Below are positions 2,562-36,941 of a DNA stretch of 64,000 nucleotides, in pieces; position 1 is the first letter of the stretch; every line of letters starts with the position of its first letter. The stretch comes from Salipiger bermudensis (lineage in GTDB: Bacteria; Pseudomonadota; Alphaproteobacteria; Rhodobacterales; Rhodobacteraceae), in NCBI RefSeq assembly GCF_020171625.1, contig NZ_JAIUZY010000007.1, positions 1 through 64,000 on the forward strand, written 5' to 3'. The position numbers and the translations under genes are program-made. The notes beneath the pieces are model-generated. The model had not been told where the DNA came from. It did no database searches and worked only from the letters and a program-made list of their open reading frames with translations.

Positions 2562-2987
2562 ATGCGGATCGCCGAGTTCGCGCGGGCCACCGGTTTCCCG
2601 GTGGACACGCTGCGCTATTACGAGAAAATCGGTCTCATCGACCCGCCGCTGCGCGACAGCGCCGGGCACCGGATCTATGGCGCGGCAGAGCTGCGCTGGG
2701 CGGAATTCCTGCACAGGCTCAGGACGACCGGCATGTCGATCTCGGAGATGCTGGCCTATGCGCGGGCACGGGCCGAGGGCGATGCCACCGCCCCCGAGCG
2801 CGCGGAGATGCTGCGGGCGCATCGCGCCGAGGTCGCCGCCCGCGTGGCAGAGCTGCAGGACTGCCTGTCCGTTCTCGACACCAAGATCGCCACCTACGAG
2901 GCGATGATGTCAGCAAAGAGAGGACCAGACCATGCCAGATCAGACACAAGAGACCCGGGCCGCGCGCGGCCGCAGGCTGCTGAATGA
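2562..2987 (+). CDS. MerR-family transcriptional regulator
   Basis: A 141-residue regulator. The N-terminal winged helix has the family signature (IAEFARATGFPVDTLRYYEKIGLIDPP), then the wing (GHRIYGAAELRWAEFLHRLRTTGMSISEM), then a dimerising coiled coil at about residues 80-115. There is no conserved metal-binding cysteine pair (only one Cys, C101), so it is more like the small-molecule/stress MerR subgroup (AdhR/NmlR-like) than mercury or copper sensors. It overlaps the next gene by 56 bp, so the pair is one operon. Confidence 0.9.
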   Translation: MRIAEFARATGFPVDTLRYYEKIGLIDPPLRDSAGHRIYGAAELRWAEFLHRLRTTGMSISEMLAYARARAEGDATAPERAEMLRAHRAEVAARVAELQDCLSVLDTKIATYEAMMSAKRGPDHARSDTRDPGRARPQAAE

Positions 2988-3333
2988 GATCGACGGCGCC
3001 GCCGGCGAGGCGGTGATCGCGGGATTGCAGGACATCGCGCCCGACTTTGCCGAGCTGCTGTTCGAGTTCCCCTTCGGCGACATCTACGCGCGCGACGGGC
3101 TCTCCCTGCGCGATCGCGAACTCGCCACCGTGGCGGCGCTCTCGGCCATGGGCACCGCGCCGAAGCAGTTGGGCGTGCATGTGCATGGCGCGCTGAATGT
3201 CGGCGTGACGCGCGAAGAGATCGTCGAGGTGATGATGCAGATGGCGGTCTATGCGGGCTTTCCCGCAGCGCTCAACGCGCTGGCCGTCGCGAAAGAGGTG
3301 TTCACGGCACGCGAAGGCGACGCCTCCGACTGA
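2932..3333 (+). CDS. carboxymuconolactone decarboxylase / AhpD-like protein
   Basis: 133 residues with the CMD fold pattern: LSLRDRELATVAALSAMG, a helix with LGVHVHGALNVGVTREEIVEVMMQMAVYAGFPAALNAL. The AhpD catalytic CXXC is absent, so this is a gamma-carboxymuconolactone-decarboxylase-like member and not a peroxidase reductase. It starts inside the merR coding end with its own ribosome site (GAGGACC). Such genes often sit with MerR regulators of the AdhR type; the substrate is unknown. Confidence 0.85.
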   Translation: MPDQTQETRAARGRRLLNEIDGAAGEAVIAGLQDIAPDFAELLFEFPFGDIYARDGLSLRDRELATVAALSAMGTAPKQLGVHVHGALNVGVTREEIVEVMMQMAVYAGFPAALNALAVAKEVFTAREGDASD

Positions 3334-6967: not shown

Positions 6968-7340
6968 CTCGCCTCTGCTCTCACCGGCATCGCGCGGGCG
7001 CCGGGGTCCTCTCCGTCGGGTCCGGCCAGCGAAGCGCATCGCGAGGCGCGGGGCAAGGGCTTCCTTGGTCGCGGACCCGGTCGGGTGTGCCGCTCGGTCA
7101 CGCCGGAGAGAGGGGCCTCCCCGCCCGCGCGGCGCTCCTGGCCCTGACGCGGCACCGCGGTCATCGCGTGGCGCGCCCGGGCGTGGCACTTGAACCGCAC
7201 GTCACTCAGCGGGCGCGCCTTTGCCGTCGCAGCCAAGGGCCGCGCCCGACCAAGACCGACCGGCAGTCCGCACTCGTTAGGCCGTCAACGCCGCGGGCTC
7301 ACGGAAACCTCGGCGGTCCGTCGCTTCATATCGCGCTGCG
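6968..7340. other. intergenic stretch without a convincing gene
   Basis: 373 bases between the VWA gene and glnE (both on the minus strand). Open frames exist on both strands but look like shadow frames of GC-rich DNA. I see no clear hairpin, repeat or promoter. Confidence 0.5.
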
Positions 7341-10118
7341 TCAAGTCTCGGGCGCCGGCAGGGCGGCGTCGATGATATCGGCGGCGCGCGCGGTCATCTC
7401 GGTGAGCTTCTCGCGCAGCGCGTCGGGGCCGTCCGTCCCGGTCAGACGGGTCAGGAAGGCGCAGCCCCCGGCGCCAAGCTCGGTCGGGTCGAGCGCGCCC
7501 TCGGCAATCAGGCGGGCGCCGATCTGCAGGCTCCAGCACAGCCGGTAGGTGGCGGCGAGGTGGTCGGCATCCGCCTTGCTGAGCCAGCCCTCGCGCGCCG
7601 CCATGGCAAGCCCGCGCGTGGTGCGCCGCGGCGCCTGCCCCGAGAGCAGCGCCCCGGCCTGCGCGGTCAGCTCGATGTCCTGCATCCGGCCGCGCCCGAT
7701 CTTGGGATCCCAGACCGCGCCCTGCCCCTTCGCCGCCGCGATGCGCGCCCGCATCGACGCAAGCTCTGCCAGCACCTTGTCGCGCGGCGGCGGGCCGGCG
7801 AGCAGCTTGGCGCGCAACGCCTCGACATCCTCGGCCAGCGCGGCGGGGCCGGCGACGACCCGGGCCCGGGTCAGCGCGAGATGCTCCCAGACCCACGCCT
7901 GGTCACTCTGGTAGCTGCGGAACGACTCCAGCGAGGTCGCCACCGGCCCCTGATTTCCCGAGGGCCGCAGACGCATGTCGATCTCGTAGAGCTTGCCCTC
8001 CGCCATCGGCGCGGTCATCGCGGTGATCGCGGCCTGTGTCAGCCGCGAGTAGTATTGCCGCGTGGGCAGCGGGCGCCGTCCGTCCGAGGCCTCGACCCCG
8101 TCGGGATCGTAAATCGAGATCAGGTCGAGATCCGAGAGCGCGTGCAGCCGCCGCGCCCCGAGCGAGCCCATGCCCACCACCACCGTGCCGCGCCCCGGCG
8201 CGGGGCCATGCTTGCGGGCGAACTCGGCCTGCACCACCGGCAGGACGGCGGCCAGCGACGCTTCGGCAAGGTCGGCGTAATGCTCGCCCGCCTCCTCCGG
8301 CTCGCTGAGGCCGCGCAGCAGGTGCACCCCGGCGCGGAAGTGCCATTCCTTCTGCCAGCGCCGCGCCATGTCGAGCCGGGTCTCGTAATCGTCCTCGCGC
8401 GCAAGCACGTCCTTCAGCTCGGCGGTGAGCGCGGCAGCCCCGGGCCACGGGCTGAAGAAATCGCCGCCGATCACCGCATCGAAGACGCTGGAATTGCGCG
8501 ACAGGTGCCGCGCCAGATCCGGCGAGGTCGAGACGATGTCGATCAGCAGGTCGATGAGCTGCGGATTGGCCTCGAACAGCGAGAACAGCTGCACCCCCGC
8601 CGGAAGCCCTGCGAGGAAGCCGTCGAAGGCCGAAAGCGCCTCCTGCGGCTTTGCGGCCTTGGCCAGCCGTCCGAGGATCTCGGGCTTGAGCCGCTTGAAG
8701 ATCTCGACCGCCCGGCCCGAGCGCAAGGCCGGGTAGTTCGGCCAGCGCGCCACCAGTTCGCTGCGCTCGATCTCGTCGGGCACGTCCGCCTCGCAGGGCG
8801 CGTCGGGTGCGAAGAACCCCTCGGTGAGCTCGTGCACCTCCTCGAGCCGGCGCTTCAGGTCCTGCTCGAGCTCGGCGCGGTCGCGGCCGCAAAGCGCCGC
8901 CAGCCGCTCGAACTCGGCCTCCGAGCTGGGCAGCTGGTGGGTCTGGGCGTCGCGCAGCATCTGCACCCGATGCTCGATCTCGCGATGGGCGCGGTAATGC
9001 TCGGTAAGTTTCTCGGTGACGCTCTGCGGCACCCAGCCGGTCTCGGTCAGCACCCGAAGCCCGTCGACCGTGCCACGCACCCGCAGCTCCGGATCGCGCC
9101 CGCCGGCGATGATCTGGCGGGTCTGGGTGAAGAACTCGATCTCGCGGATCCCGCCGCGGCCCAGCTTCATGTCGTGCCCCGGCAGGGTGATCGCCCCGTG
9201 CCCGTGCTTGTCGCGGTAGCGCAGCCGCATGTCATGCGCGTCTTGGATGGCGGCGAAATCCAGATGCCGGCGCCACACGAAGGGGCGCAGCGTCTCGAGA
9301 AAGCGCTCGCCCGCCGCGACGTCCCCGGCGCAGGGCCGCGCCTTGATATAGGCGGCGCGCTCCCAGGCCCGGCCAAGGCTTTCGTAGTAGCGCTCGGCCG
9401 CCTCCATCGAGATGCAGACCGGCGTCACCGCCGGGTCGGGGCGCAGCCGCAGGTCGGTGCGAAAGACGTAGCCCTCGCCGGTCAGATCGCCGAGGCTGCC
9501 AGACATGCGCCGCGTGGCGCGGACGAAGGCGCTGCGGGCCTCGTGGAAATCGTCGCGCTCGAAACGGGTCTCGTCGAACAGGCAGATCAGGTCGATATCG
9601 GAGCTGTAGTTGAGCTCGAACGCGCCCATCTTGCCCATCGCCAGAACCACCATGCCGCCGGCAGTCGGGATGTCGTCCTCGCTCGCGCCGGGCAGCTTGC
9701 CGCGCCGGATCTCGCGCGCGATCGCCGCCTGCAGCGCCTTCTGCACCGCGACATCGGCAAAGCGCGTCAGCGCGCCGGTCACCTCCTCAAGCGTCCAGAC
9801 GCCTGCAAGGTCCGACAGCCCCGCCAGAAGCGCCACGCGGCGCTTGGCCTGCCGCAGCGCCCCGTCGACCTCATCGGGCACCCCGGCGTCGAGCTCTTCC
9901 AGAAGCGCCGGCAGCGCCGCGTCGGGATCGTCGAGCGCGGCTTGCAGCCAGCCGGCTTCCTTGCGGATGAGGCCCTGAAGATAGGGGCTGGTGCTGCCGG
10001 CGCCCTCGATCAGCGTGGCGATATCGCCCTCGGCCCAGGGCGTGGCGGCAAGCGCCTCGGCGCCAAGTTCTGGCTCGAAGGGGCGCGGCAGGCGGGTGAT
10101 GCGGGAAGCAAAGGTCAT
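7341..10118 (-). CDS. glnE: glutamine synthetase adenylyltransferase / adenylyl-removing enzyme
   Basis: 924 residues, the usual two-domain length. Each half is a nucleotidyltransferase domain. The N-terminal (de-adenylylating) half shows AMGKMGAFELNYSSDIDLICLFD with the DxD pair, and LRLRPDPA. The C-terminal (adenylylating) half shows GMGSLGARRLHALSDLDLISIYD and MRLRPSGNQGPVATSL. It controls GlnA activity in response to the nitrogen signal protein PII. The start at 10118 gives MTFASRITRLPRPFEPEL; the upstream in-frame extension is not conserved-looking. A monocistronic unit, divergent from the YbaK-type gene. Confidence 0.95.
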   Translation of the reverse strand: MTFASRITRLPRPFEPELGAEALAATPWAEGDIATLIEGAGSTSPYLQGLIRKEAGWLQAALDDPDAALPALLEELDAGVPDEVDGALRQAKRRVALLAGLSDLAGVWTLEEVTGALTRFADVAVQKALQAAIAREIRRGKLPGASEDDIPTAGGMVVLAMGKMGAFELNYSSDIDLICLFDETRFERDDFHEARSAFVRATRRMSGSLGDLTGEGYVFRTDLRLRPDPAVTPVCISMEAAERYYESLGRAWERAAYIKARPCAGDVAAGERFLETLRPFVWRRHLDFAAIQDAHDMRLRYRDKHGHGAITLPGHDMKLGRGGIREIEFFTQTRQIIAGGRDPELRVRGTVDGLRVLTETGWVPQSVTEKLTEHYRAHREIEHRVQMLRDAQTHQLPSSEAEFERLAALCGRDRAELEQDLKRRLEEVHELTEGFFAPDAPCEADVPDEIERSELVARWPNYPALRSGRAVEIFKRLKPEILGRLAKAAKPQEALSAFDGFLAGLPAGVQLFSLFEANPQLIDLLIDIVSTSPDLARHLSRNSSVFDAVIGGDFFSPWPGAAALTAELKDVLAREDDYETRLDMARRWQKEWHFRAGVHLLRGLSEPEEAGEHYADLAEASLAAVLPVVQAEFARKHGPAPGRGTVVVGMGSLGARRLHALSDLDLISIYDPDGVEASDGRRPLPTRQYYSRLTQAAITAMTAPMAEGKLYEIDMRLRPSGNQGPVATSLESFRSYQSDQAWVWEHLALTRARVVAGPAALAEDVEALRAKLLAGPPPRDKVLAELASMRARIAAAKGQGAVWDPKIGRGRMQDIELTAQAGALLSGQAPRRTTRGLAMAAREGWLSKADADHLAATYRLCWSLQIGARLIAEGALDPTELGAGGCAFLTRLTGTDGPDALREKLTEMTARAADIIDAALPAPET

Positions 10119-10687: not shown

Positions 10688-11019
10688 GCCGACGCCGAGC
10701 TTGGGTCTCTGGGGCTTGGCGCCGCCACGCAGCGGGCGGCGCGGGACGATGCGGGGGGCGGAGCAGTCGGTCGGCGATATCGCCCATAACGTCGCTGATC
10801 ACGCCCCCGGGCGCGGTTACACGCCCCCGAGCAGGTCCACGGCGCTGCCCAGCGTGAGACATGGTCAGCCGCGAGGCATGAGCAACCGTGAGGAATGGGC
10901 GGCAGTGAGCCATGGCCAGGCGGCTGGTATCGTTCGACCGCGCCGAGCCCACCGGCCCTGCCAGCCGGGCGCGAAATGCTTGACCCCGGTGGCGGGAATG
11001 CTACGGAGAGCGTCACGGT
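10688..11019. other. intergenic stretch upstream of the tRNA gene
   Basis: 332 bases between the deacylase gene and the tRNA. No convincing coding frame on either strand. It should hold the tRNA promoter, but I do not see a strong -35/-10 pair. Confidence 0.5.
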
Positions 11020-11096
11020 GGGCCTGTAGCTCAATTGGTTAGAGCAGGGCGCTCATAACGCCTTGGTTGGGGGTTCGAGTCCCTCCGGGCCTACCA
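11020..11096 (+). tRNA. tRNA with CAT anticodon (elongator Met or Ile2)
   Basis: A full cloverleaf of 77 nt with encoded CCA. The acceptor arm pairs GGGCCTG with CGGGCCT, D-arm GCTC...GAGC, anticodon stem GGGCG/CGCCT with loop CTCATAA (anticodon CAT at 11054-11056), and T-arm GGGGG-TTCGAGT-CCCTC. A CAT anticodon fits elongator tRNA-Met or tRNA-Ile2 with lysidine; I cannot separate these by eye. The 3' end from 11078 is the prophage attachment core and is restored exactly by integration, so the tRNA remains functional. Confidence 0.95.
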
Positions 11097-11101
11097 AAAA
11101 T
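11078..11101 (+). repeat. attL core
   Basis: 24-bp sequence starting AGTCCCTCCGGGCCTACC and ending in AAAAAT. It covers the T-stem 3' strand, acceptor stem and CCA of the tRNA and is identical to 50915-50938. Inside the prophage the motif GATGTGGACCACG (11129-11141) recurs near attR, a candidate integrase arm site. Confidence 0.93.
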
Positions 11102-11167
11102 TGCAAAAAATGCAGTAAATTCAAGGACGATGTGGACCACGATACCTGCTCACTGGTCCATATGAAA

Positions 11168-11395
11168 TCAACTACTTACAAGCGAACTGGACCCTCCGAA
11201 TCCAGCCGACCAGCCGAACCGAACCTCCTCCGGTCGCCCTACCCGCCCGCACCTCGAGCACCGGAGCCGGGCCAGCGCTGCGTCGGTCATCACCCACCCG
11301 GTCGCGTCCCGATCCTCGCGCGGCAGGACGGCCATCATGATGGTGCTGTCGCGCCCGCAGGCGCAGGTTAGCAGCGCGTAGTGTCCGCGGCGCAT
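11168..11395 (-). CDS. small phage zinc-ribbon-like protein
   Basis: 75 residues; Cys pairs CAC (residues 11-13) and CSRC (46-49) suggest a metal-binding ribbon. Between them DSTIMMAVLPREDRDATGWVMT looks ordered. First gene inside attL, read towards the tRNA. Function unknown; moderately confident that it is real because codon use and Cys spacing look protein-like. Confidence 0.5.
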   Translation of the reverse strand: MRRGHYALLTCACGRDSTIMMAVLPREDRDATGWVMTDAALARLRCSRCGRVGRPEEVRFGWSAGFGGSSSLVSS

Positions 11396-11402
11396 GGCGC
11401 TT

Positions 11403-11603
11403 CTAACTTGACTGCTTCACAAGACGGAAATTTTGCCAGAGCCGCTCTGGTGCCGTGGCGGGCTCGATGCCGGCTGACAGTGCCAAGGCCGTCGCCGCGT
11501 CGATTAAGCTAGCAAAGGCCGCGACGGCATCCCCCTCACATTCAATCGCTGCCATTCTTGCCAGCCCAGAGACCCGCTTAGCGTGATTTTCTAAGATCGG
11601 CAT
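11403..11603 (-). CDS. small hypothetical phage protein
   Basis: 66 residues from the ATG at 11603 (MPILENHAKRVSGLARMAAIECEGDAVAAFASLIDAATALALSAGI). Helical, no Cys or membrane segment. Preceded by AGGGGAGGGG as ribosome site. Part of a leftward series of very small genes. Function not recognised. Confidence 0.55.
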   Translation of the reverse strand: MPILENHAKRVSGLARMAAIECEGDAVAAFASLIDAATALALSAGIEPATAPERLWQNFRLVKQSS

Positions 11604-11616
11604 TTCCCCTCCCCTC

Positions 11617-11829
11617 CTATTTAACACTTTCGATGAAGAACGCGGCCGCCGCCATGAAGATCAGTGCAATGACCACTATCCCGATAATCGCCCCTTGATC
11701 TTCTTCCGGAACATCCAGGACCAGACGCCCTCCACATTTCGTGCACGGCTTACTGCCGCGTTCCAGACGCCTTCTCGTCCTCCAACCGCAATTTGAACAG
11801 CGGAGGGGAGCTGCTCCTCTTGGCGCCAT
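11617..11829 (-). CDS. small zinc-ribbon membrane protein
   Basis: 70 residues. A CxxC-x14-CxxC zinc ribbon (CSNCGW...CTKCGG) is followed by an acidic linker and one transmembrane helix (IIGIVVIALIFMAAAAFFI) near the C-terminus. This two-part layout suggests a membrane-anchored small regulator or host-interaction protein; role unknown. It sits 14 bp upstream of the next gene in the same series. Confidence 0.6.
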   Translation of the reverse strand: MAPRGAAPLRCSNCGWRTRRRLERGSKPCTKCGGRLVLDVPEEDQGAIIGIVVIALIFMAAAAFFIESVK

Positions 11830-11841
11830 CGCCTAGCCCTC

Positions 11842-12069
11842 CTATTTGGCTTCTTGGATCTTCCAACGCGGCTCCCCCTGATCTACGGGGCGTTCCTTCC
11901 AGCACTCGAACAAAAGGCCGTCGCCAGCATCGCTGACCGTGAACCGCGAGAACGTGCCACCCTCGGCGTCCGCCTCTTTGGCGCGCAAATCAAACCAAGC
12001 CCACGAAGCCGCCTCGTCACCGACCACATATGGATCGAAAGTCTGGGCTATAAAAAATGGTTCGGTCAT
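11842..12069 (-). CDS. small hypothetical phage protein
   Basis: 75 residues from the ATG at 12069: MTEPFFIAQTFDPYVVGDEAASWAWFDLR, then GTFSRFTVSDAGDGLLFECWKERP. Acidic, beta-rich appearance. Not recognised. The 12070-12245 gap upstream contains no clear gene. Confidence 0.5.
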   Translation of the reverse strand: MTEPFFIAQTFDPYVVGDEAASWAWFDLRAKEADAEGGTFSRFTVSDAGDGLLFECWKERPVDQGEPRWKIQEAK

Positions 12070-12245
12070 CGCCTTGCTCCTCAAACTCGCGCCTGGTGAC
12101 CGGGCTCAGTTGATCTGCACATCGCCCCCACGCCGTCTCGGTCACCACGCTATCGTGCGGGCCGGATCGCGCTGCGCAGGGCGTCGAAGTCGTGAAGCAT
12201 GGTTTGCGCCCTCGCGGCGTCACCGAACGTATGCAACCGGCATAT

Positions 12246-12416
12246 TCACCGCGTAGAACTTTGGTCAGCATACCACGATGCAGAAGCGATCAGGAGAGCC
12301 TCACTCTGGAGCTTGCCTCTTCCGACGTGCTCTGTACCGGATTCATCTGAAATCGTGCATGACCAACGCTCAGCAGAACTTTCCAGAGGCCGTTCGACAA
12401 TCTTGATCTCAGGCAT
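12246..12416 (-). CDS. very small hypothetical protein
   Basis: 56 residues (MPEIKIVERPLESSAERWSC, ending ASASWYADQSSTR). ATG at 12416 preceded by GGAGAGAACG, a good ribosome site, nine bases after the previous stop. No domain recognised. Short, so moderate confidence. Confidence 0.45.
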   Translation of the reverse strand: MPEIKIVERPLESSAERWSCTISDESGTEHVGRGKLQSEALLIASASWYADQSSTR

Positions 12417-12425
12417 CGTTCTCTC

Positions 12426-12563
12426 CTACCTCGCCCGCGCGCGGCAGAAATATCGAAACAGCGATAGAAATGCGGCTCCAGCGGCATCAGCCGCGCCCCA
12501 ACCCACTCGAACACCGAAGCCGGCCAAGACCGCCACGGCAATAATTTCCCACGTATACAGCAC
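12426..12563 (-). CDS. very small single-pass membrane protein
   Basis: 45 residues with a GTG start: VLYTWEIIAVAVLAGFGVRV, then WGAADAAGAAFLSLFRYFCRARAR. One hydrophobic helix and a basic tail. GGAGAG lies a few bases upstream. It falls 12 bp after the preceding gene and 9 bp before the next, in line with a tightly packed series. Confidence 0.4.
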   Translation of the reverse strand: MLYTWEIIAVAVLAGFGVRVGWGAADAAGAAFLSLFRYFCRARAR

Positions 12564-12575
12564 TTCGTTACTCTC

Positions 12576-12854
12576 CTATTTGAACTCCGCCCACTCAAGC
12601 TCGCAGGAGACGATCTCGCCACCCTCGACCATGAGCCGGCCCCTCTGTTGAAATGCGGCCTCGGCCTCCTCTCGCGAGCCAAAGCCCGCACCGAAAGCGG
12701 CGACGTAGCTCCACCCGGTGCGGCCAAGCTGATCGTAGTCATCCATCCAGAATAGCCGCGCGCCGCCTGGACAGACGCACTCGATGATCCAGTAGGAGCC
12801 TGGCGGCCACGCTTCTCCGGTCGAACCGTAGTGCTTCGCAATCGTCGGCAGCAT
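12576..12854 (-). CDS. hypothetical phage protein
   Basis: 92 residues, rich in aromatic and glycine residues (WPPGSYWIIECVCPGGARLFWMDDYDQLGRTGWSYVAAFGAGFGSREEAEAAFQQR). The C-terminal half looks like a short domain that follows an input track, then EWAEFK. No membrane segment. Not recognised. The ATG is preceded by AGGGGAGCGAGGCG. Confidence 0.55.
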   Translation of the reverse strand: MLPTIAKHYGSTGEAWPPGSYWIIECVCPGGARLFWMDDYDQLGRTGWSYVAAFGAGFGSREEAEAAFQQRGRLMVEGGEIVSCELEWAEFK

Positions 12855-12869
12855 CGCCTCGCTCCCCTG

Positions 12870-13172
12870 TCAGATCTTACGCTTCTCGCGCTCGAAATCA
12901 GCGAACCCGCGCATACTTGGGGCGCCTTCCCGGCTGCGCTGGCGGTGCAGCTCCTCGACTTCCTCCTCCGAAGCCTTGCGAGCAGGCGCATCGTGCAAGC
13001 CATCGCCGTCCGGAGCATCATCGGTCATGTCGAGGTGCCAGAGATCGCCGTTGCGCGTGTCTCGGATGATCTCGGCGGTCCTCGTCGCGACCTCGGTCAC
13101 AAACGGCGTGGACTTGTGGTCGTCGCCATGCGGATCAATGCCAGCATCGCGAAGTAGTTGAAAAAACGTCAT
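12870..13172 (-). CDS. hypothetical acidic phage protein
   Basis: 100 residues (MTFFQLLRDAGIDPHGDDHKSTPFVTEVATRTAEIIRDTRNGDLWHLDMTDDAPDGDGLHDAPA, then a charged helix SEEEVEELHRQR). Start at 13172, after GGAGCGCGAT. No family recognised. Same transcription direction as its small neighbours. Confidence 0.55.
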   Translation of the reverse strand: MTFFQLLRDAGIDPHGDDHKSTPFVTEVATRTAEIIRDTRNGDLWHLDMTDDAPDGDGLHDAPARKASEEEVEELHRQRSREGAPSMRGFADFEREKRKI

Positions 13173-13205
13173 ATCGCGCTCCTGCGGCGGCACAGATCTG
13201 CTATC

Positions 13206-13352
13206 TCAGACTAGCCCGAAAAAGAAGGCCAACCCAGGGAGGACAAACAGCGCAAGGACTAACCCGAGCACCACGACAGGTCCACCTGTCCGTTTGCCAA
13301 CCTCCCAAGCAATCATCCCCGCACCGATTATCAACCAGACCCAAACGAACAT
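13206..13352 (-). CDS. very small two-helix membrane protein
   Basis: 48 residues: MFVWVWLIIGAGMIAWEVGKR, a short polar turn, then GGPVVVLGLVLALFVLPGLAFFFGLV. Two transmembrane helices and nothing else, like a small holin, toxin or membrane effector. A strong ribosome site (AAAGGAGCG) is eight bases before the ATG, and the stop of the preceding small frame is 12 bp upstream. Confidence 0.5.
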   Translation of the reverse strand: MFVWVWLIIGAGMIAWEVGKRTGGPVVVLGLVLALFVLPGLAFFFGLV

Positions 13353-13364
13353 GCCAGCGCTCCT

Positions 13365-13481
13365 TTACTGGACATCCTCCCACGGCGCACCGCGGATCAG
13401 GGTTAGAATTGGCCGGTGGCGCGCGGCCAGCATCGACCATAGCCACCATTCATTCGGGAATTGGATCAGCCACGGCGCCAC
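13365..13481 (-). CDS. very small hypothetical protein
   Basis: 38 residues with a GTG start: VAPWLIQFPNEWWLWSMLAARHRPILTLIRGAPWEDVQ. Tryptophan-rich, amphipathic. AGGAGCGAGGC precedes the GTG. Directly upstream, an in-frame remnant ending VTWWCAGPVAFAAEHK (stop at 13491) has no start codon and may be the tail of an eroded gene. Low confidence on size alone. Confidence 0.35.
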   Translation of the reverse strand: MAPWLIQFPNEWWLWSMLAARHRPILTLIRGAPWEDVQ

Positions 13482-13793
13482 GCCTCGCTCCTATTTATGC
13501 TCGGCCGCGAATGCGACCGGGCCGGCGCACCACCAGGTTACCAGCCTGTTCCCCGCCGCATCCTCGCGGACCGGCTGGCCGATGCGCCAGAGCTTCGGGG
13601 TGGGGCAAAAAGGCTATCATTAACCACATACCCCCCGCCCGATGCTCCAGTACAGCTTGAAGGAATCTGAAAGGCGACCAGAGCGCACAGCCAGCAGTTG
13701 CAGATCACATCAGATTCGCGCTAGAGACGCTACGGATGGACCTTTTATGAAACTTGAATAGCGTTCCACTCCGAGCAATGTGGGGCGCAAACA
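13482..13793. other. control region between small leftward genes and the rightward cargo trio
   Basis: Holds the startless remnant frame (13491 to about 13610, minus strand) and an AT-richer leader for the rightward ATPase gene. I do not see a convincing -35/-10 pair. Base composition changes here, becoming visibly richer in A/T from about 13.65 kb. Confidence 0.4.
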
Positions 13794-15305
13794 ATGGCCA
13801 ATTGGCACATCGATGAAGTAGATGACCTACTAAGCCTGGATCAGCTTGACGTAAGTTTTCCTCCTAATAAGCGTGAAGATGTCCAAAATGCTAGGGTCAT
13901 GGCATTCTTGCTGAGACGTAGAATTATTCGACCGATCTCCAGAAATGCCTCGGCACGCCAAAGGTCGGCATCTCGCGCGTCTAGAAGTCTTGCAAAACGC
14001 CTATCACGGCGCCTTATAGTTCAAGCAAAACGTGGTAGAGATACTGAGTACGACACTCAATCTCTCAAGCGCGCTCTGATTGCGCAAAGAAAGCCTTCGA
14101 TACTTCTCGACAGCTTTGTCGCAGAGAGAAGCTCGAACTGGGTTCCGATGTTCCAGCGCATTAAGTACAAGCGAAAGTCCCAGGTGGAAGTGAAGGACTT
14201 CTCCTTCCTAACCAATCCTAACGGCACAATCGAGACGCTGCGAGAGATTGCGGAGCATGAAGCAAGCGTGTACTCGTCGCAAATTCACTTTCGAGATCTC
14301 GTATGCTGCGACATAGGCGCTTGGTTGATACTGGCTGTCATGCGGCAACAAATGGCAGCAATCTTCACTGGGGGTGCCATTTCCGATGAATTGATCGAGG
14401 TTATAACTGCACTAGAGATGACGAATGCTCTGCGAATGAGCTTACCAACGCCTGATCCGGATCGGATTTCATCGGAAGTCTGGGCGTTCCCTCTTCGCGC
14501 TCGTCGGCCAGCAGGAACTAGTACCTCGTCCACCCAGTTCCTCGATCCGCAGGATGCCGAAGAAGTCGCCACGGATCTCTGCGACGCGATCAACACTTGG
14601 CTGACTGAATGCGCACAACAGAACCTGAACCGTGATGGCCGGAGAAACGTGCTCAGATTGGTCGCAGAAACTCTGGACAACGCCGAGCGGCACGCGCGCC
14701 CAGACTACGAGAACGATGGCGACTGGATGATGACCGGCTTCATGTCCGTGACGGACACCGAATCAGAGCGGCGCTTCCAGTGCCAGATCGCCTTCCTTAG
14801 TGTTGGTTCGCCCATTTCCGAGACAGTACGTAACTGTGACGCTGCCACCAGAACAAAAATGGAAGAGTACGTAACGAAACATCAATCAACGTACCCTACC
14901 ATGAAGCATGCCGATCAGCACTTGCGAACGGTCTATGCACTACAAGATTTTGTTAGCAGGGACCGGAAGGCACACGAGGAACAGCGTGGAGGCACCGGTT
15001 TTAGCGACATTATTGGCGTGTTTGCCGACCTAGCAGGCCATGAGAACCCGGACGTTTTCGCTAGACTGGCGGTTGTTTCTGGCCACACCTGCCTCCATTT
15101 GAGTAGGGACGAGTGTGACAGTGCAGTCACAGCCAGTGTAGGCAAGCCTTTCAATATCTGGTTGAATGATGAGCATAGTAGTGTCATGCCGCCGCGTAGC
15201 GAGTCCATTGTGGAACTTGAGACTGAGCTCGCCGGCACGCTTGTGACTATGTGCTTTGAGTTCGATCCTGACTACTTAGAGAGAACACATGATGGTAGAG
15301 ATTGA
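13794..15305 (+). CDS. GHKL/HATPase-type ATP-binding protein (candidate accessory or defence gene)
   Basis: 503 residues, AT-richer than its neighbours. Residues about 40-80 are very basic (ARQRSASRASRSLAKRLSRR). Around 165-215 lies a segment (DIGAWLILAVMRQQM) that may be a STAS-like fold. Residues 255-490 look like a GHKL ATPase: N-box ETLDNAERHA (292-301) and glycine-rich ATP lid GGTGFSDIIG (399-408). No histidine-kinase phosphoacceptor or membrane segment is visible. It overlaps the DUF4325/STAS-like gene by 17 bp, so the two are translated together; such ATPase/STAS pairs resemble anti-sigma partner-switch modules. Its ATG lies within an operator-like palindrome. Role in phage exclusion or host control is inference. 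Confidence 0.7.
   Translation: MANWHIDEVDDLLSLDQLDVSFPPNKREDVQNARVMAFLLRRRIIRPISRNASARQRSASRASRSLAKRLSRRLIVQAKRGRDTEYDTQSLKRALIAQRKPSILLDSFVAERSSNWVPMFQRIKYKRKSQVEVKDFSFLTNPNGTIETLREIAEHEASVYSSQIHFRDLVCCDIGAWLILAVMRQQMAAIFTGGAISDELIEVITALEMTNALRMSLPTPDPDRISSEVWAFPLRARRPAGTSTSSTQFLDPQDAEEVATDLCDAINTWLTECAQQNLNRDGRRNVLRLVAETLDNAERHARPDYENDGDWMMTGFMSVTDTESERRFQCQIAFLSVGSPISETVRNCDAATRTKMEEYVTKHQSTYPTMKHADQHLRTVYALQDFVSRDRKAHEEQRGGTGFSDIIGVFADLAGHENPDVFARLAVVSGHTCLHLSRDECDSAVTASVGKPFNIWLNDEHSSVMPPRSESIVELETELAGTLVTMCFEFDPDYLERTHDGRD
13795..13808. promoter_or_regulatory. operator-like palindrome over the ATPase start codon
   Basis: The 14-mer TGGCCAATTGGCAC shares 12 of 14 positions with the prophage operator GTGCCAATTGGCAC, including the perfect palindrome GCCAATTGGC, and overlaps the ATG at 13794-13796. 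It could let the prophage repressor block this gene. Chance or coding constraint (ANWH) remains possible. Confidence 0.45.
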
Positions 15306-15618
15306 TCTAGGTTCGCTGACCAAGGCGAACTCGAAGGTACTCGCAGGCCATATCCGTGGCGTCGCGGCGAGTGAGTTCTACAAGCTGGATGAGCTGGAGG
15401 TTTCCGGAAGCGAGCCGCTGACGATCGTCGCTCCGCAGCACTTGGAGACGATCTCGCCGTCGTTTGTTCAGGGCTTTTTGGGTGAGACGATGAAGAGGAT
15501 AGGCCCTGCCGCGCTTAGCGCGCGACTGGACTTCTCAAGGCTCAAGCCCTTTCTTCAGGATGACTTCGAAATCGGAATTCAACGTTTGACACTTCGATCC
15601 GAAGTAGAGAGACACTAA
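15289..15618 (+). CDS. DUF4325 / STAS-like small protein
   Basis: 109 residues. The pattern LDELEVSGSEPLTIVAP then ISPSFVQGFLGETMKRIGPAALSARLDFSRL fits DUF4325, a STAS-like fold in which a conserved Ser/phenylalanine/GFLG segment follows a beta strand. STAS-like proteins commonly partner with GHKL ATPases, which phosphorylate or bind them. Two start codons (ATGATG at 15289 and 15292) lie within the end of the ATPase gene. Soluble. The next frame follows almost at once (+1 frame) with no normal start. Confidence 0.7.
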   Translation: MMVEIDLGSLTKANSKVLAGHIRGVAASEFYKLDELEVSGSEPLTIVAPQHLETISPSFVQGFLGETMKRIGPAALSARLDFSRLKPFLQDDFEIGIQRLTLRSEVERH

Positions 15619-15619
15619 T

Positions 15620-16129
15620 ATCTGCGGCGAGTGTCAAACTCCTGGCTTAGACTGGGCAGCGATTGTATCCGCGATCTCTGCCCTTCTTGCTTTTGTTTTC
15701 TCTTTTGCGCAATGGCTCCTCTCTGAAAGACGTTCATCCGCCCGTGACAAGCGGGATCAGTTCTTCGAGACAGTAAAGAATCCGATTTCAAAGCACATCG
15801 ACCGCCTCAAAGATTTGCAGATTGAAATATTTCGATGGGAATCAAACACTGTCGAAACTGACTTTTCATTCATGTTTGAGAGAACGGCCCGTTATGTGCA
15901 GGATCTAAACAGAGACCTAAACCATCTCAGAGATAGTGAGTTTGAGGATTGCTGGGACTGGCTATCCATTAACACAGATGACCTCGTTGAGTGCGTGGAC
16001 GAGGTTTACTGGGAAACCAGGAACCTACATGTCCGCACGTTCACAAACAATCTGAACAGACTTGTCGAGACGCTGGATCAAGCTGTGTCATCAAGTCGGC
16101 CACGCTACAAGGCAAGAAGAACGAGATAG
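15620..16129 (+). CDS. membrane-anchored helical protein, start unclear
   Basis: The frame is open from after a TAG at 15605-15607 and encodes one membrane helix (AAIVSAISALLAFVFSFAQWLL, about 15656-15721), then a basic turn (SERRSSARDKR) and about 130 residues of acidic helices (HIDRLKDLQIEIF, LNRDLNHLRDSEFEDCWDWL, NNLNRLVETLDQAV). There is no ATG, GTG or TTG before the membrane helix; the first is TTG at 15815. Either an ATC/ATT start, a +1 shift from the STAS-like gene, or a sequence error must explain this. Third member of the cargo trio; likely membrane partner, function unknown. Confidence 0.5.
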   Translation: MCGECQTPGLDWAAIVSAISALLAFVFSFAQWLLSERRSSARDKRDQFFETVKNPISKHIDRLKDLQIEIFRWESNTVETDFSFMFERTARYVQDLNRDLNHLRDSEFEDCWDWLSINTDDLVECVDEVYWETRNLHVRTFTNNLNRLVETLDQAVSSSRPRYKARRTR

Positions 16130-16239
16130 CGCCCATCCATCCGAACACGCGACCGAGAAGCCGCTTTTCACCCCAAGACATGACGCAGTATACTCCCCAC
16201 TGCGCGCTTTGATCGTCTTCTTCGCCCTGCCCTCGCTCC

Positions 16240-16533
16240 TCAGTTGGATCCACTTTCCTGAGCCACCTCGCCCGAACTACCGTCCCGATCATTCCACCCC
16301 ATCAGCTCTTGGAAGCCTGCGCTCGCGATGCCGATGACTGCAGAGAGCAGCGCCACGCCTATTGCCAACCGCCACTGCGCGTTGCGCTGGCGTCGTTGCA
16401 GAACTGCATGGATCTCACCGAATTCGGTCGGACTGTCAGTCACGATCTTAGGAACAACAGCAGCCTGCGCGAGACGCATGTGCAGCTTGCTGTCTGGCCA
16501 CTTCGAGGCGTCACCCTTCTGATATTCAGCCAT
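16240..16533 (-). CDS. small phage membrane protein
   Basis: 97 residues from the ATG at 16533 (MAEYQKGDASKWPDSKLHMRLAQAAVVPKIVTDSPTEFGEIHAVLQRRQRNAQWRLAIGVALLSAVIGIASAG). A soluble N-terminal half, one transmembrane helix near residues 55-75 and a short acidic tail. GAGGGG is five bases upstream of the ATG; a GTG at 16539 would add two residues. It follows the 16543-17022 gene by a few bases. Not recognised. Confidence 0.6.
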   Translation of the reverse strand: MAEYQKGDASKWPDSKLHMRLAQAAVVPKIVTDSPTEFGEIHAVLQRRQRNAQWRLAIGVALLSAVIGIASAGFQELMGWNDRDGSSGEVAQESGSN

Positions 16534-16542
16534 CTTCACCCC

Positions 16543-17022
16543 TCAGATCTTGTTCCGTGACTTGCGGACGTTCGCGGCGTTCTGCTCGGCAGCCACCATG
16601 TCGAGCAGGTCGGTGATATCGTCACCCTCGGCATAGAGCGCCGATCCGTTGCCGCGCACCGTGTGGACGTAGACCAGCATACCGCAAGACCAAAGCCGCT
16701 CAATCACTTGCCGCGCGTGAGCCGGTGAAAAGCCGATGCAGAGCGGCGTGGCGAAGAAAACTTGATCTCCAGCGGGTAGAAGCGCTCCCATCGTGTCGAG
16801 GAACGCAGCCCGCTCTTTCAGCAGCCCCGGCCAGTTGGTGGTGCGCTTGCCGGTCACGTCATCCACGATCAGCGCGGAAACGTCGCGCATCCCGAGCATC
16901 GATTCCGTAACGCCCCACGCGCGGGCGCGGGCGATCTGTTCGCCCCGAGACGGCAGGCGCTCGTTCACCGTGATGATGGCCCACTTCCCATTGAAGTGCC
17001 CTGCTTCCTTACCGTCGCTCAT
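16543..17022 (-). CDS. hypothetical phage protein
   Basis: 159 residues, mixed alpha/beta: NGKWAIITVNERLPSRGEQIARARAWG, then SALIVDDVTGKRTTNWPGLLKERAAFLDTMGALLPAGDQVFFATPLCIGFS, AHARQVIERLWSCGMLVYVHTVRGNGSALYAEGDDITDLLDMVAAEQNAANVRKSR. The end is faintly like the tail of a serine-recombinase catalytic domain (residue order only), but no catalytic serine context is clear, so I leave it unnamed. Divergent from the zinc-ribbon gene, across a promoter region with direct repeats. Confidence 0.6.
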   Translation of the reverse strand: MSDGKEAGHFNGKWAIITVNERLPSRGEQIARARAWGVTESMLGMRDVSALIVDDVTGKRTTNWPGLLKERAAFLDTMGALLPAGDQVFFATPLCIGFSPAHARQVIERLWSCGMLVYVHTVRGNGSALYAEGDDITDLLDMVAAEQNAANVRKSRNKI

Positions 17023-17046
17023 TCGCCGCCGCTTTCTGTCTGCTTT

Positions 17047-17106
17047 CTGTATTTGATAAGCAAACGTCTTACTTCGATCAATGCGCTCTCTTACTGTATT
17101 TGATAA
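17047..17106. promoter_or_regulatory. 13-bp direct repeat pair in a divergent promoter region
   Basis: CTGTATTTGATAA occurs at 17047-17059 and again at 17094-17106, 47 bp apart, between the divergent genes at 17022 (minus) and 17129 (plus). AT-rich with TTTGATAAT, so it may include -10 elements or a regulator site. Confidence 0.4.
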
Positions 17107-17128
17107 TTAAGTAGGTCCGGAGGCACCG

Positions 17129-17323
17129 ATGCTGTTCGATAAGAGCGAGATCCCGCGCGACAGATTTCTTGTCCGCATGCGCGTCGTCGATGCTGGCGAC
17201 GGGATGATCCGTTTTCAGTGTCGCGCCTGCGATCACGACACCGGCTGGATCGAGGATCGCTGGACCATAACCGAGAACCGGCGCGGACAACCGTGCCCGC
17301 GCTGCAACCCCAAGTCCAACTGA
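17129..17323 (+). CDS. small zinc-ribbon protein
   Basis: 64 residues with CRAC...CPRC (about residues 31-34 and 56-59), spaced as a zinc ribbon, and DRFLVRMRVVDAGDGMIRFQ before it. AGGTCCGGAGG is a strong ribosome site before the ATG. About 150 bp upstream of the nuclease gene and in the same direction, so possibly co-transcribed. Likely nucleic-acid or protein binding. Confidence 0.6.
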   Translation: MLFDKSEIPRDRFLVRMRVVDAGDGMIRFQCRACDHDTGWIEDRWTITENRRGQPCPRCNPKSN

Positions 17324-17472
17324 TCCCAAGATCACCGGTTCGGTGATCCGGGCATTGCGGCGCGCAACCAGATTTATTTCTCCAAGAGCTGCGGAACTGG
17401 GTCGACGATCCGTGGCCGGTCGGGTTTCATGCGGCAGAGCAGTTTCAGAAAAAAGCCTGTACGGAGGAAGCG

Positions 17473-18747
17473 TTGCAGACCAACACCGAGCGAGAAGAGC
17501 CGATGGGCGAAAGCGCCTTCGAGGCGCTGTTCGTCAACAATGACGATCTCCATCAGCTCGAGGCGTATCTTAACCGGTTCAACCCGATCCGGGTGATGGG
17601 AATGCAGCACCAGGAGATCCGCCATTCAGCGATTCTTGCCTGGTTGCTAAATCCGCAGGAAAGCCACGGTTTTGGTGACAAGATACTTCGGGCCTTCCTA
17701 TGCGCCGCTTTCCAAGGTCGCAGAGAAGACGGCCAGCCAAGCGCGCTGCAGATCGCCCAGGCGGATCTGCGCGATGCGGTAGTGCGGCGCGAGTGGCAAG
17801 ACATCGACATCTTCATCCTTTTGCCCCGGCTGAGTTGCGCCGTCATAGTCGAGAACAAGTTTCACGCTCGGCAGCACGAGGGGCAGCTGGCGAAATACGC
17901 AGGGCGCGCGCGCGAGATCTACGAGGGGCATGACGAGATACCGCACGTGCGCGGGATCTTCCTCACACTGCACGACGAAGATCCGGCCGACCCCTCATTT
18001 GCGCCAATCCAATATCAGGCGCTCTGCGAGATACTGCCTGCGATCCTGGCCCGCGAAGCGCAAACCGTGGATGCCGACGTTGCAACTTTCGTGCGCCACT
18101 ACATCGACATCATTCAGGAGGCCTCGGGCATGAGCAAGGAACGGACCGAGATGGAGAAGTTGGCGCGCGATCTCTATCGCACGCATCGCAAGGCGCTTGA
18201 TTTCATCTGGGAGCACGGCGAAGAAACCGATTTCACGTTCGCCGTCGAAGCGGTGTTTGGAGAGCAGTCGGAGCGAGGCTCGGTGACCGAGGTCGAAGGG
18301 TTCGAGGTGCTTTTCTACTGGAACAGCACGGACACCGTCTGCTTCTTCCCGAAAGCCTGGTCCGACGCGATAGGGAAGGAAAATATACACCTGGAGGGTT
18401 GCGAGAACTATTGGTCTGGCCATCCGCTTGCCTGCTGGATGCAGCTCTTCACGAATGAAGATGGGGGCGGGACACTGCGCCTCTACTCCGAGGTCGGACC
18501 GATTAAGGATCGGAAAGCCAGAACCGCACTGATCGACAAGATCACGGCGGCGAAGCTACCGAAAACGGGCTTCCAGCGGACGGCGACAGCTCCAAACAAG
18601 CGCTATTCGAAATTCCTCAAGGGCAATATCGTCGAGATCAAGGATGCGCAGGACAGTGAAGAGATTGGGCGCGCCATGCGCACGCTGCTAAGTCGTTTTG
18701 CACCTGTGTTCGACGGGGTGGCAGATGTCCTGCCAGACTTTGCGTAA
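17473..18747 (+). CDS. PD-(D/E)XK nuclease superfamily protein (PDDEXK_4-like)
   Basis: 424 residues from a TTG start with GGAGGAAG upstream; an ATG at 17503 is the alternative. Residues 46-66 (HQEIRHSAILAWLLNPQESHG) and the motif D110-I-D112...VIVENK (E127, K129), then Q138, match the PD-(D/E)XK nuclease core of the PDDEXK_4 family. The C-terminal 250 residues (LDFIWEHGEETDFTFAVEAVF..VLFYWNSTDTVCFFPKAW) probably recognise the target. Proteins of this family are common in defence or accessory loci; substrate unknown. High-GC codon use like the phage, unlike the AT-richer trio. Candidate anti-phage cargo, inferred. Confidence 0.75.
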   Translation: MQTNTEREEPMGESAFEALFVNNDDLHQLEAYLNRFNPIRVMGMQHQEIRHSAILAWLLNPQESHGFGDKILRAFLCAAFQGRREDGQPSALQIAQADLRDAVVRREWQDIDIFILLPRLSCAVIVENKFHARQHEGQLAKYAGRAREIYEGHDEIPHVRGIFLTLHDEDPADPSFAPIQYQALCEILPAILAREAQTVDADVATFVRHYIDIIQEASGMSKERTEMEKLARDLYRTHRKALDFIWEHGEETDFTFAVEAVFGEQSERGSVTEVEGFEVLFYWNSTDTVCFFPKAWSDAIGKENIHLEGCENYWSGHPLACWMQLFTNEDGGGTLRLYSEVGPIKDRKARTALIDKITAAKLPKTGFQRTATAPNKRYSKFLKGNIVEIKDAQDSEEIGRAMRTLLSRFAPVFDGVADVLPDFA

Positions 18748-18874
18748 TACAGCGTGATCGATGGGCAAACCGCCATTCTTTCGGCACATGGCATCAAGCA
18801 GCACATGGAACGCATGTCGCTAAAGCTCTCCGAGCGGTCGAACGGTTCCAGTCCAGAAAACGCCGGAGGCCGAT

Positions 18875-19210
18875 ATGGCATTCATCTTGAAGCGGCACGA
18901 GGTTCTGGTCGCTGGCTATGGCGCGGCCTTCTTCTACGCGAAGAACAAGAGCCAAGCGCGGGCGCGCGCCTTCCGGGCTATGCAGCCAGCAAACGCCGCG
19001 ATCACCTTCAAGCGGTTCTTGCAGATGCGCCCCGCGATCACCGAAGTGAAGATGCCGGCCGGCTTCGGGCGAGAGATCGAGGTCAACGGCAAGCCCGCGC
19101 ATTGGGTAGAGCATGCGGGCGGCAACAGCGTCCGCTTCGCGTATCCCGACAGCGACACCATCTTGCTCACGCACGAGGCTGATGTGCGCGAGATTGAACC
19201 GATCCAGTAA
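18875..19210 (+). CDS. hypothetical phage protein
   Basis: 111 residues, basic N-terminus: MAFILKRHEVLVAGYGAAFFYAKNKSQARARAFRAMQPANAAITFKRFLQ, then a beta-rich part ending DTILLTHEADVREIEPIQ. GGAGGCCGAT is the ribosome site. No family recognised. It lies after the nuclease gene in the same direction. Confidence 0.6.
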   Translation: MAFILKRHEVLVAGYGAAFFYAKNKSQARARAFRAMQPANAAITFKRFLQMRPAITEVKMPAGFGREIEVNGKPAHWVEHAGGNSVRFAYPDSDTILLTHEADVREIEPIQ

Positions 19211-19302
19211 CCCCGGCACGAAGGGCCGTGCGCAGACGTCGGCCTCGTATCGCTTCAAGGTCCGGAGTGCGGACGTTGCAGACATTCCGAGTGGCGGTGA
19301 AC

Positions 19303-19932
19303 CTACGGCCTTGAGAGTAGCAGTCGGATGCCCGCATACCCGAAGATCGCTGCGAACATCCCCTCGATCACACGGCGCGCTTTTTGGTAAGCGCGCCCCA
19401 TGACGCTGGTCGAGAAGATCAGGGCATAGCCAACATTGACGATCATACCCAACACAGCGCAGCCCGCCATCATGATTGGGATCGTGTAGGACGGCGCGTC
19501 AGGACGCAGCCCTAAGGACATAATTGCTATCCATCCCAACACGGCCTTCGGATTTGAGAGATGAAGCACCATGCCCTTGCAATAGAGCGCCCATTTTCCT
19601 GCCAAGGGGATCATAGCCGTCTGACCAGACCCACGCGCCAACGCTGAACGCGCAGATTTCCATGCTAGATAGAGCAGATACAGGCCGCCAGCGACCTTGA
19701 TGGCGAAAATTGCTTCGGCGTAAGCGGTGAGCGCGGTGGAGATGCCACTCGCTGCAAGAACGGCCCAGAAGAGGCTGCCCGTTACCACGCCAAGGGCCAA
19801 AGCAACTGCACGTGGGCGTCCTTGGTGCATGGCAACCCCCATGATCGCCAATGTGCTCGGTCCAGGGCTTGCTATCGCGATCAAGTAGGCCGCGAAAACG
19901 GGCAGCAGATGGTAGATCTGATTGGTCATCAT
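19303..19932 (-). CDS. LysE/RhtB-family amino-acid exporter
   Basis: 209 residues from the ATG at 19932, five to six membrane helices. The signature region IASPGPSTLAIMGVAMHQGRPRAVALALGVVTGSLFW is diagnostic of LysE/RhtB translocators, followed by LYLLYLAWKSARSAL and LHLSNPKAVLGWIAIMSLG. These proteins export lysine, homoserine, threonine or related small molecules. In a prophage this is a cargo (moron) gene, perhaps of use to the host. It converges with the 18875-19210 gene. Substrate cannot be told. Confidence 0.88.
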   Translation of the reverse strand: MMTNQIYHLLPVFAAYLIAIASPGPSTLAIMGVAMHQGRPRAVALALGVVTGSLFWAVLAASGISTALTAYAEAIFAIKVAGGLYLLYLAWKSARSALARGSGQTAMIPLAGKWALYCKGMVLHLSNPKAVLGWIAIMSLGLRPDAPSYTIPIMMAGCAVLGMIVNVGYALIFSTSVMGRAYQKARRVIEGMFAAIFGYAGIRLLLSRP

Positions 19933-20699
19933 GAAAGTACCAGTCGCTTGATACAGCTCTACCAAGCATCTTAACGGCTAATTTTCGGTACGATAGGATT
20001 TGATGAGGGTCTAGGCGAACGTCCGCAACGGGCTCGAAGCGGTCATTCTCTGCGCTCCGCCCGAAGGTCCACAGACGGTAGCGAACGGTCGAACGGACCC
20101 AGTCCATGAAACGCCGGGAGGCCGGCACGGAACCCTGCCTTGATGCGCGTATTGGCGACGGAATCGTCAAATAATTTACCAATAGTGCTGGTCCCTATCC
20201 ACTGGGATAGTGGTCGAGAATTTGCTCTATAAGCTGTCAGGTCGGCCGGCAAATTTCATGTACAATCGAGAGATTCCATAGAGTCAGGAAGCCCCACCCA
20301 AACCGAGGTTTCGAACCCCCGCTGGACAAAATCTATTGTGTCACTGCCGGGCCGGTCCGGGTTCGGAGGGTGCTCTCAGACCTCAAAGCCTGACCACCTA
20401 AGTTTAGCAACGTCGTCTGCAGTTTTCCAGGTTAATGGCGCGGGGCGGGAGAGGATCCCGCGCGGACGTCATCTCAGTTTCTGAGCGGAATCTGGACACC
20501 CACCGCCGAGCGTTCTGTACTGGAACTTCACCTACAACCTGGTCAGTAGCCGCTGCGCGGGACGAATCTACCCTCTGCGCACATACCCTCTGTTTCGCGC
20601 GAGACGTCGCGAGCGGTCCGGCCCAACCGCTTAGATGTCGTGTCCTAGAGCGATTCTTCGATAACAGGTCGCTCGCACGACCGGGATGATCCCACGATA
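19933..20699. other. long stretch without a supported gene
   Basis: About 770 bases between the LysE gene and the lipoprotein gene. Open frames on both strands lack protein-like composition. One segment (minus strand GGGGGTTCGAAACCTC at about 20300) resembles a tRNA T-arm but no cloverleaf can be built. Possibly decayed cargo DNA. Confidence 0.5.
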
Positions 20700-20975
20700 T
20701 CAGTCAACGCAAATCGGGGTGCCACCAGTGGTTAAGAGAGGCTCAGAGTACGGGCGGCCATTCGGATCAATCGCCTCGTAGACCGCGCAGTTCGACTCAT
20801 CGTAGCCGATCCGGCTGTCTCTATAGTCCAAGCGCTGGTCCACCCTTTGAAACGCTGTAACCTCCGCACTGGGCAGCATATCGTTCTCGAGATTCCCGGT
20901 TGGTTCCATCGTCTCGCCCATTTGACACGCAGCGAGGGACCCTGCGAGAAGAATGGGAAGGAGTATTTTAATCAT
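20700..20975 (-). CDS. small lipoprotein
   Basis: 91 residues. Signal peptide MIKILLPILLAGSLAAC with a lipobox (LAAC, cysteine 17), then QMGETMEPTGNLENDMLPSAEVTAFQRVDQRL and a C-terminal GGTPICVD. Preceded by GGAGATG. Prophage lipoproteins often act in superinfection exclusion or alter the host surface; here that is only an inference. No homologous family recognised. Confidence 0.7.
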   Translation of the reverse strand: MIKILLPILLAGSLAACQMGETMEPTGNLENDMLPSAEVTAFQRVDQRLDYRDSRIGYDESNCAVYEAIDPNGRPYSEPLLTTGGTPICVD

Positions 20976-21218
20976 CAGTCATCTCCAAACTGCGTGGGGT
21001 GGTGTTAGTAAACTCGCGAACAGGCGGTCCGGCTCACGGGTTGCTGGCCCGCCGTCTCGACCGATCGGCTGCCGCAGCCTTTATTAGTGGCTTTGTTCTC
21101 GAATTTGAAGCGCAGAAACACTCTATTCAGTGTTTGCCGTCGGGGTCTGAACGACCGGTGTCGGACAGAAGCCCTCGCCAAAACTATCCGGCCAAAAACG
21201 GCGGCTTCTGCCCCTCTC

Positions 21219-36912: not shown

Positions 36913-36941
36913 GGGAACCTCCGATTTTTAGGGGTTGGCCT

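Follow-up and report, generated by a model that had tools for sequence, protein, structure and literature searches.

The question raised by positions 13794–16129 of the window, the whole 64,000-nucleotide stretch of Salipiger bermudensis DNA analysed here, is whether three genes lying end to end in prophage cargo work as one system and, if so, by what logic. An initial annotation, made from the letters alone, had read them as a GHKL ATPase, a DUF4325/STAS-like protein and a membrane-anchored helical protein, and had proposed an undescribed system. We find that these genes (A, B and C, hereafter the triad) are one conserved unit, co-occurring where the DNA of relatives extends far enough, and consider it moderately probable that they form a kinase–STAS–effector unit built like the published VapKSC system, with a membrane effector. 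The initial interpretation is, overall, partly supported.

All three genes lie on the + strand and are packed as the annotation had described. A (13794–15305, ATG start) encodes a kinase-like protein of 503 amino acids (aa), B (15289–15618, ATG start) a small STAS/DUF4325-like switch protein of 109 aa, and C (15620–16129) a predicted single-pass membrane protein of 169 aa, counted from an ATC codon at 15620. The A and B reading frames overlap by 17 bases. The AT-richness noticed earlier also held: guanine-plus-cytosine content was 53.2% in 14001–15000 and 50.9% in 15001–16000, versus 57–61% in the remaining kilobases of 11001–21000 and 62–67% in 21001–46000.

A conserved unit on mobile elements

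No Pfam, NCBIfam or PADLOC model matched A, B or C above chance level, and PADLOC-DB 2.0.0 gave no convincing match for these proteins or their relatives, the best score (0.0023) being that of the third protein of locus L016 with the transmembrane model of DRT (the L016 and L022 proteins were scanned against PADLOC and Pfam without their last residue). In PHROGs, A weakly matched phrog_3364, of unknown function (2.6e-6), and C had two weak matches near 0.002. A tblastn search of A against phages and plasmids, single-protein scans of genome and viral contigs, and profile searches against PDB sequences yielded nothing useful. Relatives came from an alignment-based scan of viral contigs (19 A loci), a second such scan (one new), a genome scan (seven A loci, two already known) and plasmids (seven A records, three of which were examined for the triad, the others being H42, H43, H45 and H46). 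A is rare, occurring in 5/292 genomes of the order, 4/385 of the class and 2/398 of the phylum sample, with its own genome included in each count.

After near-identical loci had been counted once, 32 distinct loci remained, including that of the window (L023–L025 were collapsed to L022 and L028 to L027; L050 is L018 and L051 is L009; the duplicate records L035–L047 and two Escherichia coli records, L056 and L074, were left out). B followed A in 31 of these 32 loci and a protein with a hydrophobic helix followed B in 30. The exceptions were L021, which ends after B, and L052, which ends near the end of A and whose A sequence diverges from the family at its end, no more than 272 bases before the contig stops. 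The relatives' loci showed no additional gene belonging to the conserved unit. The claim of one system had been staked on co-occurrence of the genes and on ATPase and STAS features in the predicted folds; the outcome favours it, though weakly where the STAS fold of B is concerned.

The named genomes of the close clade are alphaproteobacterial (Marivita, Acidimangrovimonas, Pseudorhodobacter, Roseicyclus, Parvularcula and Sulfitobacter), and the triad was found inside prophages as well as on plasmids, where tyrosine recombinases or ParAB lay nearby. In L012 (genome G231), A is reduced to about its last 69 residues (around oriented positions 2959–3219), with B and C whole; the sequence ahead of the cut is what we take to be the 3' end of a transfer RNA (tRNA), and the cut may be an integration or recombination scar. 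The triads of L013 (oriented 6584–8962) and L015 (7416–9575) are in genomes of two different families, and the gene directly beside both is presumably uvrB, a DNA-damage gene.

A second clade (L022–L034) was obtained from IMG/VR contigs, and the A proteins of the two clades aligned by profile (probability 99.5, E 2e-22). The DNA of L022 is identical (100%) to that of E. coli WS1933D. In WS1933D and in strain B2, the two genomes inspected of the 31 that carry the triad, it lies between the portal (gpQ) and replication endonuclease (gpA) genes of a P2-like prophage, all three products being annotated as 'hypothetical protein'. P2 itself carries old and tin at this site, a known anti-phage hotspot (Rousset et al. 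2022, PMC9122126; also covered in PMC9519451), and this location supports the initial interpretation. Old, tin and the other P2-like cargo described in PMC9122126 share the site, and their proteins are unrelated to the triad as far as PADLOC shows. Triad DNA was present over at least 80% of its length in 31/5426 E. coli genomes, with some match in 1123; among the 40 matches listed, 38 covered only 59 to 106 bases of the left edge, which we regard as the shared border of the site. This E. coli site is home to two triad alleles that are 70.7% identical in DNA. Another cargo of the P2 hotspot in E. coli (L076, 4775–6154) encodes a DUF4760 protein and a weak PADLOC match to Csx27 (1.6e-5).

The kinase-like and switch proteins

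The predicted A protein consists of a basic helical N-terminus (residues 1–127), a STAS-like segment (128–236) and a SpoIIAB-like GHKL domain (about 252–490). Among the chains compared, the closest solved structure to its model was the partner-switch kinase SpoIIAB, the whole domain of which superposed, placing the model within the GHKL fold of the anti-sigma kinase type (SpoIIAB/RsbW). A MORC- or Hsp90-type reading was dropped, since SpoIIAB scored well above the Hsp90 and topoisomerase structures. Foldseek by itself gave no match at E <= 0.001 for A or B. The N-box (ETLDNAERHA) and ATP lid (GGTGFSDIIG) pointed out earlier correspond to residues 292–301 and 399–408 and are conserved in position; Glu292 and Asn296 of the N-box, glycines 400 and 402 of the G2 box, and Gly481 do not vary across the 22 sequences aligned. 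From the predicted fold and this conservation, we infer that A acts as a kinase on B.

The model of B (predicted local distance difference test 92.3) comprises a STAS-like part and a single C-terminal helix (residues 87–108), without a winged helix-turn-helix (wHTH). In 22 aligned B sequences, G20, G24, A27, S58 and G62 are invariant, and Ser58 (codon 15460–15462, + strand) stands at the N-terminus of the helix 57–71, as would be expected of a STAS partner of the VapKSC type; it is the predicted phosphorylation site. The DUF4325 pattern reported earlier was not recovered directly: in a direct test, PF14213 (gathering cut-off 23 bits) matched neither B, up to E 1, nor anything else in its own genome, and the assignment by Pfam was therefore dropped. 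The label is nevertheless supported by a relative of B in Spirosoma (L071), which scored 23.1 against PF14213 and 55 bits against the close-clade B profile. A profile comparison of B with the S proteins of DUF4325 type was weak (probability 4.7, P 0.0085).

Kinase–STAS switches are already known with a repressor output (CapKS) and with a nuclease output (VapKSC). Their logic of a kinase, a STAS protein and, in VapKSC, an effector has been presented by Chambers et al. (EMBO J 2026, June 2026; PMC13373217), and our comparisons refer to the features described there. In that account, CapK is a STAS-GHKL kinase, activated by single-stranded DNA (ssDNA), that phosphorylates a helix-2 serine of the STAS protein CapS; it reacts to DNA damage as well as to ssDNA, as VapK presumably does. 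The phosphosites on helix 2 are S54 in CapS and S48 in VapS, and in the model for VapKSC, an operon that protects E. coli against a phage, phosphorylated VapS lets go of the VapC toxin.

On this description, the triad resembles VapKSC in its gene order (kinase, STAS protein, effector) and its pairing of a predicted STAS + GHKL kinase with a STAS-like protein, in the single conserved Ser/Thr on helix 2 and the short C-terminal helix of that protein, which has no wHTH, and in its mobile or defence context. It differs in the third protein, a PIN nuclease in VapKSC and a single-pass membrane protein here, and A is set apart from VapK by the missing G1-box aspartate and the long basic N-terminus (127 aa). 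CapK and CapS are likewise encoded by adjacent genes for a GHKL/STAS kinase and its STAS substrate ahead of an effector. However, B, with 109 aa and no wHTH, is too small to act as a CapS-type DNA-binding repressor, and CapKS has diverse immune operons downstream, whereas the triad has one fixed third position. Relative to SpoIIAB/SpoIIAA, A has extra STAS-like and N-terminal parts, the unit is without a sigma factor gene and its third member is a membrane protein. A and B hold switch parts like those of CapK/CapS and VapK/VapS, in the same order, and B is built like VapS; C is most naturally read as standing in for VapC. The epithet 'undescribed' was therefore half right: the logic of kinase, STAS protein and effector has been published (PMC13373217), and what is new with respect to that description is the membrane output.

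A further lineage with the same layout was found by a DUF4325 search of 142 genomes, which gave eight places in seven genomes. Six loci were inspected (the other two being L062 and L063), and two of these (L059 and L060) were triads of a STAS-GHKL kinase, a DUF4325 protein and a transmembrane protein. In the remaining four (L057, L058, L061 and L064), the GHKL and DUF4325 parts are joined, placing kinase and substrate in a single chain. Further DUF4325-type triads were found on Acinetobacter and Vibrio plasmids, in Marinobacter phage AS1 and in a Helicobacter prophage (record H50, one of four matches in the plasmid search, lay outside the inspection). The third gene has an N-terminal hydrophobic segment in 6/7 loci of this type, L060 being borderline and L066 having two segments; no third gene is annotated in Novosphingobium L065. 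The DUF4325-type kinase aligned with A over the STAS and GHKL parts (probability 94.4, E 9.4e-8) and with the P2-clade kinases at a probability of 60.5; the profiles of A and B gave proteins of this type scores close to the noise level, with maxima of 10.3 bits (A10) and 4.2 bits (A11). These triads thus share with that of the window the three-gene layout, a profile-alignable kinase and the hydrophobic segment of the third gene, but have an aspartate in the G1 box and, where tested (L059 and L066), a true PF14213 S protein. No name for them (L059, L060, L066–L069) was found in the open-licence PMC literature.

The membrane protein, its start codon and the proposed mechanism

The predicted membrane helix of C spans residues 12–30 (15653–15709, + strand; mean hydropathy 2.15) and is followed by basic residues. 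The single membrane helix of the initial annotation is therefore retained, and its 'long acidic helices' amount to a net charge of -5 across 169 aa. Pfam gave no match to a PIN domain for C or for three third proteins of the P2 type, which have a hydrophobic helix instead. C is the fastest-changing gene of the three, with non-synonymous divergence of 0.40–0.59, as against 0.13–0.31 for A, for which synonymous divergence was not estimable in 5/6 pairs, and 0.16–0.31 for B. An intermediate, L048, was matched by the close-clade C profile at 0.00095 (small set). Homology throughout between C and its P2-type counterpart was considered and dropped, the alignment being limited to the membrane helix.

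From its opening at 15608 to the end of the membrane helix, the C frame lacks any ATG, GTG or TTG. The sole near-cognate codon found was the ATC at 15620, 2 bases past the B stop. The first standard start is the TTG at 15815, which is why the list of open reading frames gives just a 104-aa frame from there. A near-cognate start at the B stop was also found in three relatives (CTG in L049 and L053, ATT in L054). Starts were predicted as the nearest plausible in-frame codon between 40 bases before the B stop and the helix; in 17 close loci, C had an ATG in 4 (5 if one includes L014, where an ATG also encodes the residue with which the predicted helix begins), only GTG or TTG in 9 and only near-cognate codons in 4, whereas B starts with ATG in 15/17 (Fisher test, p 3.6e-4, uncorrected for relatedness). 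In the P2 clade, C begins with ATG, inside the end of B in 8/9 loci. The start codons of C fit a toxin kept below its antidote. If this is so, C would be a clear example of a toxin dose set by initiation strength at the stop codon of the antidote, and the missing standard start would account for its omission or truncation by gene callers.

The scheme that we favour draws on the conservation of the operon and its placement in prophages and at the P2 hotspot, on Ser58 being invariant, on the weak starts of C and its predicted membrane helix, and on the folds predicted for A and B. At rest, unphosphorylated B would bind and restrain C, which would span the inner membrane once and have a part in the cytoplasm. 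A nucleic-acid signal, arising on phage infection or DNA damage, would be bound by A through its basic N-terminus, its STAS-GHKL groove or both, as suggested by CapK and VapK. The SpoIIAB-like domain of A would then phosphorylate Ser58 of B, a step to which the predicted fold and conservation point, and B would let go of C. Freed C may harm or depolarise the membrane, halting the infected cell before phage are produced. The weak or near-cognate start near the B stop is observed; its putative function would be to have C made together with B, at a lower level.

Several observations weigh against this scheme. The G1 box of GHKL kinases has the pattern DxGxG. A does not have the full set of nucleotide-binding boxes, so that the GHKL ATPase of the initial annotation stands for the SpoIIAB-like predicted fold and the N and G2 boxes but not for the G1 aspartate, replaced by Ser336; Ser or Asn occupies this position in 25/25 A-family members, versus Asp in 7/7 of the DUF4325 type. 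B has the serine expected of a STAS-like switch, but its structural match to the STAS fold is weak. In hhalign, C and its P2-type counterpart aligned at a probability of 1.5 (P 0.033), and the third proteins of the DUF4325 type could not be aligned with C.

The altered G1 box bears on one alternative in particular. If ATP were unused, A could be a scaffold, ATP-gated or nucleotide-free, that lost phosphotransfer, with B as its structural partner; the uniform loss of the aspartate is in line with this, yet the invariance of the N-box, G2 and Gly481 residues and of Ser58 in B, and the superposition of the whole SpoIIAB domain, make it very unlikely. It is also conceivable that C is a membrane sensor (a receptor) with the A–B pair as output, for example one that switches a sigma factor or transcription. 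Sigma factors are the end point of classical partner switches, and one transmembrane helix with a soluble part, together with fast evolution such as arms-race sensors may show, would suit a receptor. The small size of B, its lack of a CapS-like wHTH, the absence of any further gene from the conserved unit and the nuclease effector in third position in VapKSC (PMC13373217) nevertheless argue for a quite low probability of this arrangement.

A role in addiction or prophage control, with A and B sensing host DNA damage and C serving lysogen maintenance, induction or stress but no anti-phage function, would accord with the signals ascribed to CapK and VapK (PMC13373217) and with the prophage and plasmid locations of the unit. 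We regard it as unlikely, given that the E. coli triad occupies the variable gpQ–gpA cargo site, home of old/tin and exclusion genes, rather than the phage control region, and that two alleles share this site. The hotspot also suggests that the E. coli relatives might be Rst_3HP (DefenseFinder), the three-gene system of Rousset et al. 2022, which is reported to lack clear predicted domains and to protect against phage P1 (PMC9122126); the defence role would then be known. The site, the three genes and their annotation as hypothetical proteins agree with this identity, but PADLOC-DB has Tin, Old and AriA models and none that matches the E. coli triad, and PMC9122126 labels transmembrane proteins as such in other systems, whereas a hydrophobic helix is plain in the third gene product of the triad, so that we hold the identity to be distinctly improbable.

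The triad is a real and conserved three-gene system and probably a defensive one, with a known logic and what would be a new kind of output. The proposed VapKSC-like unit would extend kinase–STAS control of immunity to membrane effectors, with one control pair and interchangeable outputs, and the existence of a form of the triad in E. coli P2-like prophages makes the idea testable in standard strains and phages. More tentatively, as a possibility that we would not yet call probable, phospho-STAS switches may be a general chassis for mobile defence, including an unreported class of single-pass membrane effectors, with at least two kinase lineages, extending from Bacteroidota plasmids to P2-like prophages, and with the effector dose set by a weak or near-cognate start (ATC, CTG or ATT) at the stop of the restrainer.

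The host prophage and its cargo

A complete prophage carries the triad at its left end, the one distal to the integrase. The left attachment site (attL, 11078–11101) is a 24-bp repeat that includes the 3' end of a tRNA-Met gene (11020–11096), and the second copy (attR, 50915–50938) marks the right end. The integrase lies at 49654–50838 on the + strand (phrog_1 integrase, 7e-20), the terminase, portal, protease and capsid genes at 35710–40523, and the tail fibre gene at 24374–25480. An empty site was found in a genome of the same genus (G1012), in which 155 bases separate the end of the tRNA match (3879460) from the start of the right-flank match (3879615). G1020 has the same flank order at a distance of about 500 bases, based on a weak 49-base match, and in G1009 the two flanks are about 5 kb apart; in the rest of the 20 genomes, the right flank was either unmatched or matched over just the 23–24 bases of the repeat.

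The PD-(D/E)XK gene beside which the triad had been placed, in prophage cargo, was confirmed at 17473–18747 on the + strand (PF14281, 1.1e-24). It matches the PADLOC candidate defence gene PDC-S26 (6.2e-75) and is a cargo neighbour outside the triad. The small genes around it match nothing. The cargo end of the prophage also carries a gene for a LysE-type translocator on the - strand (19303–19965).
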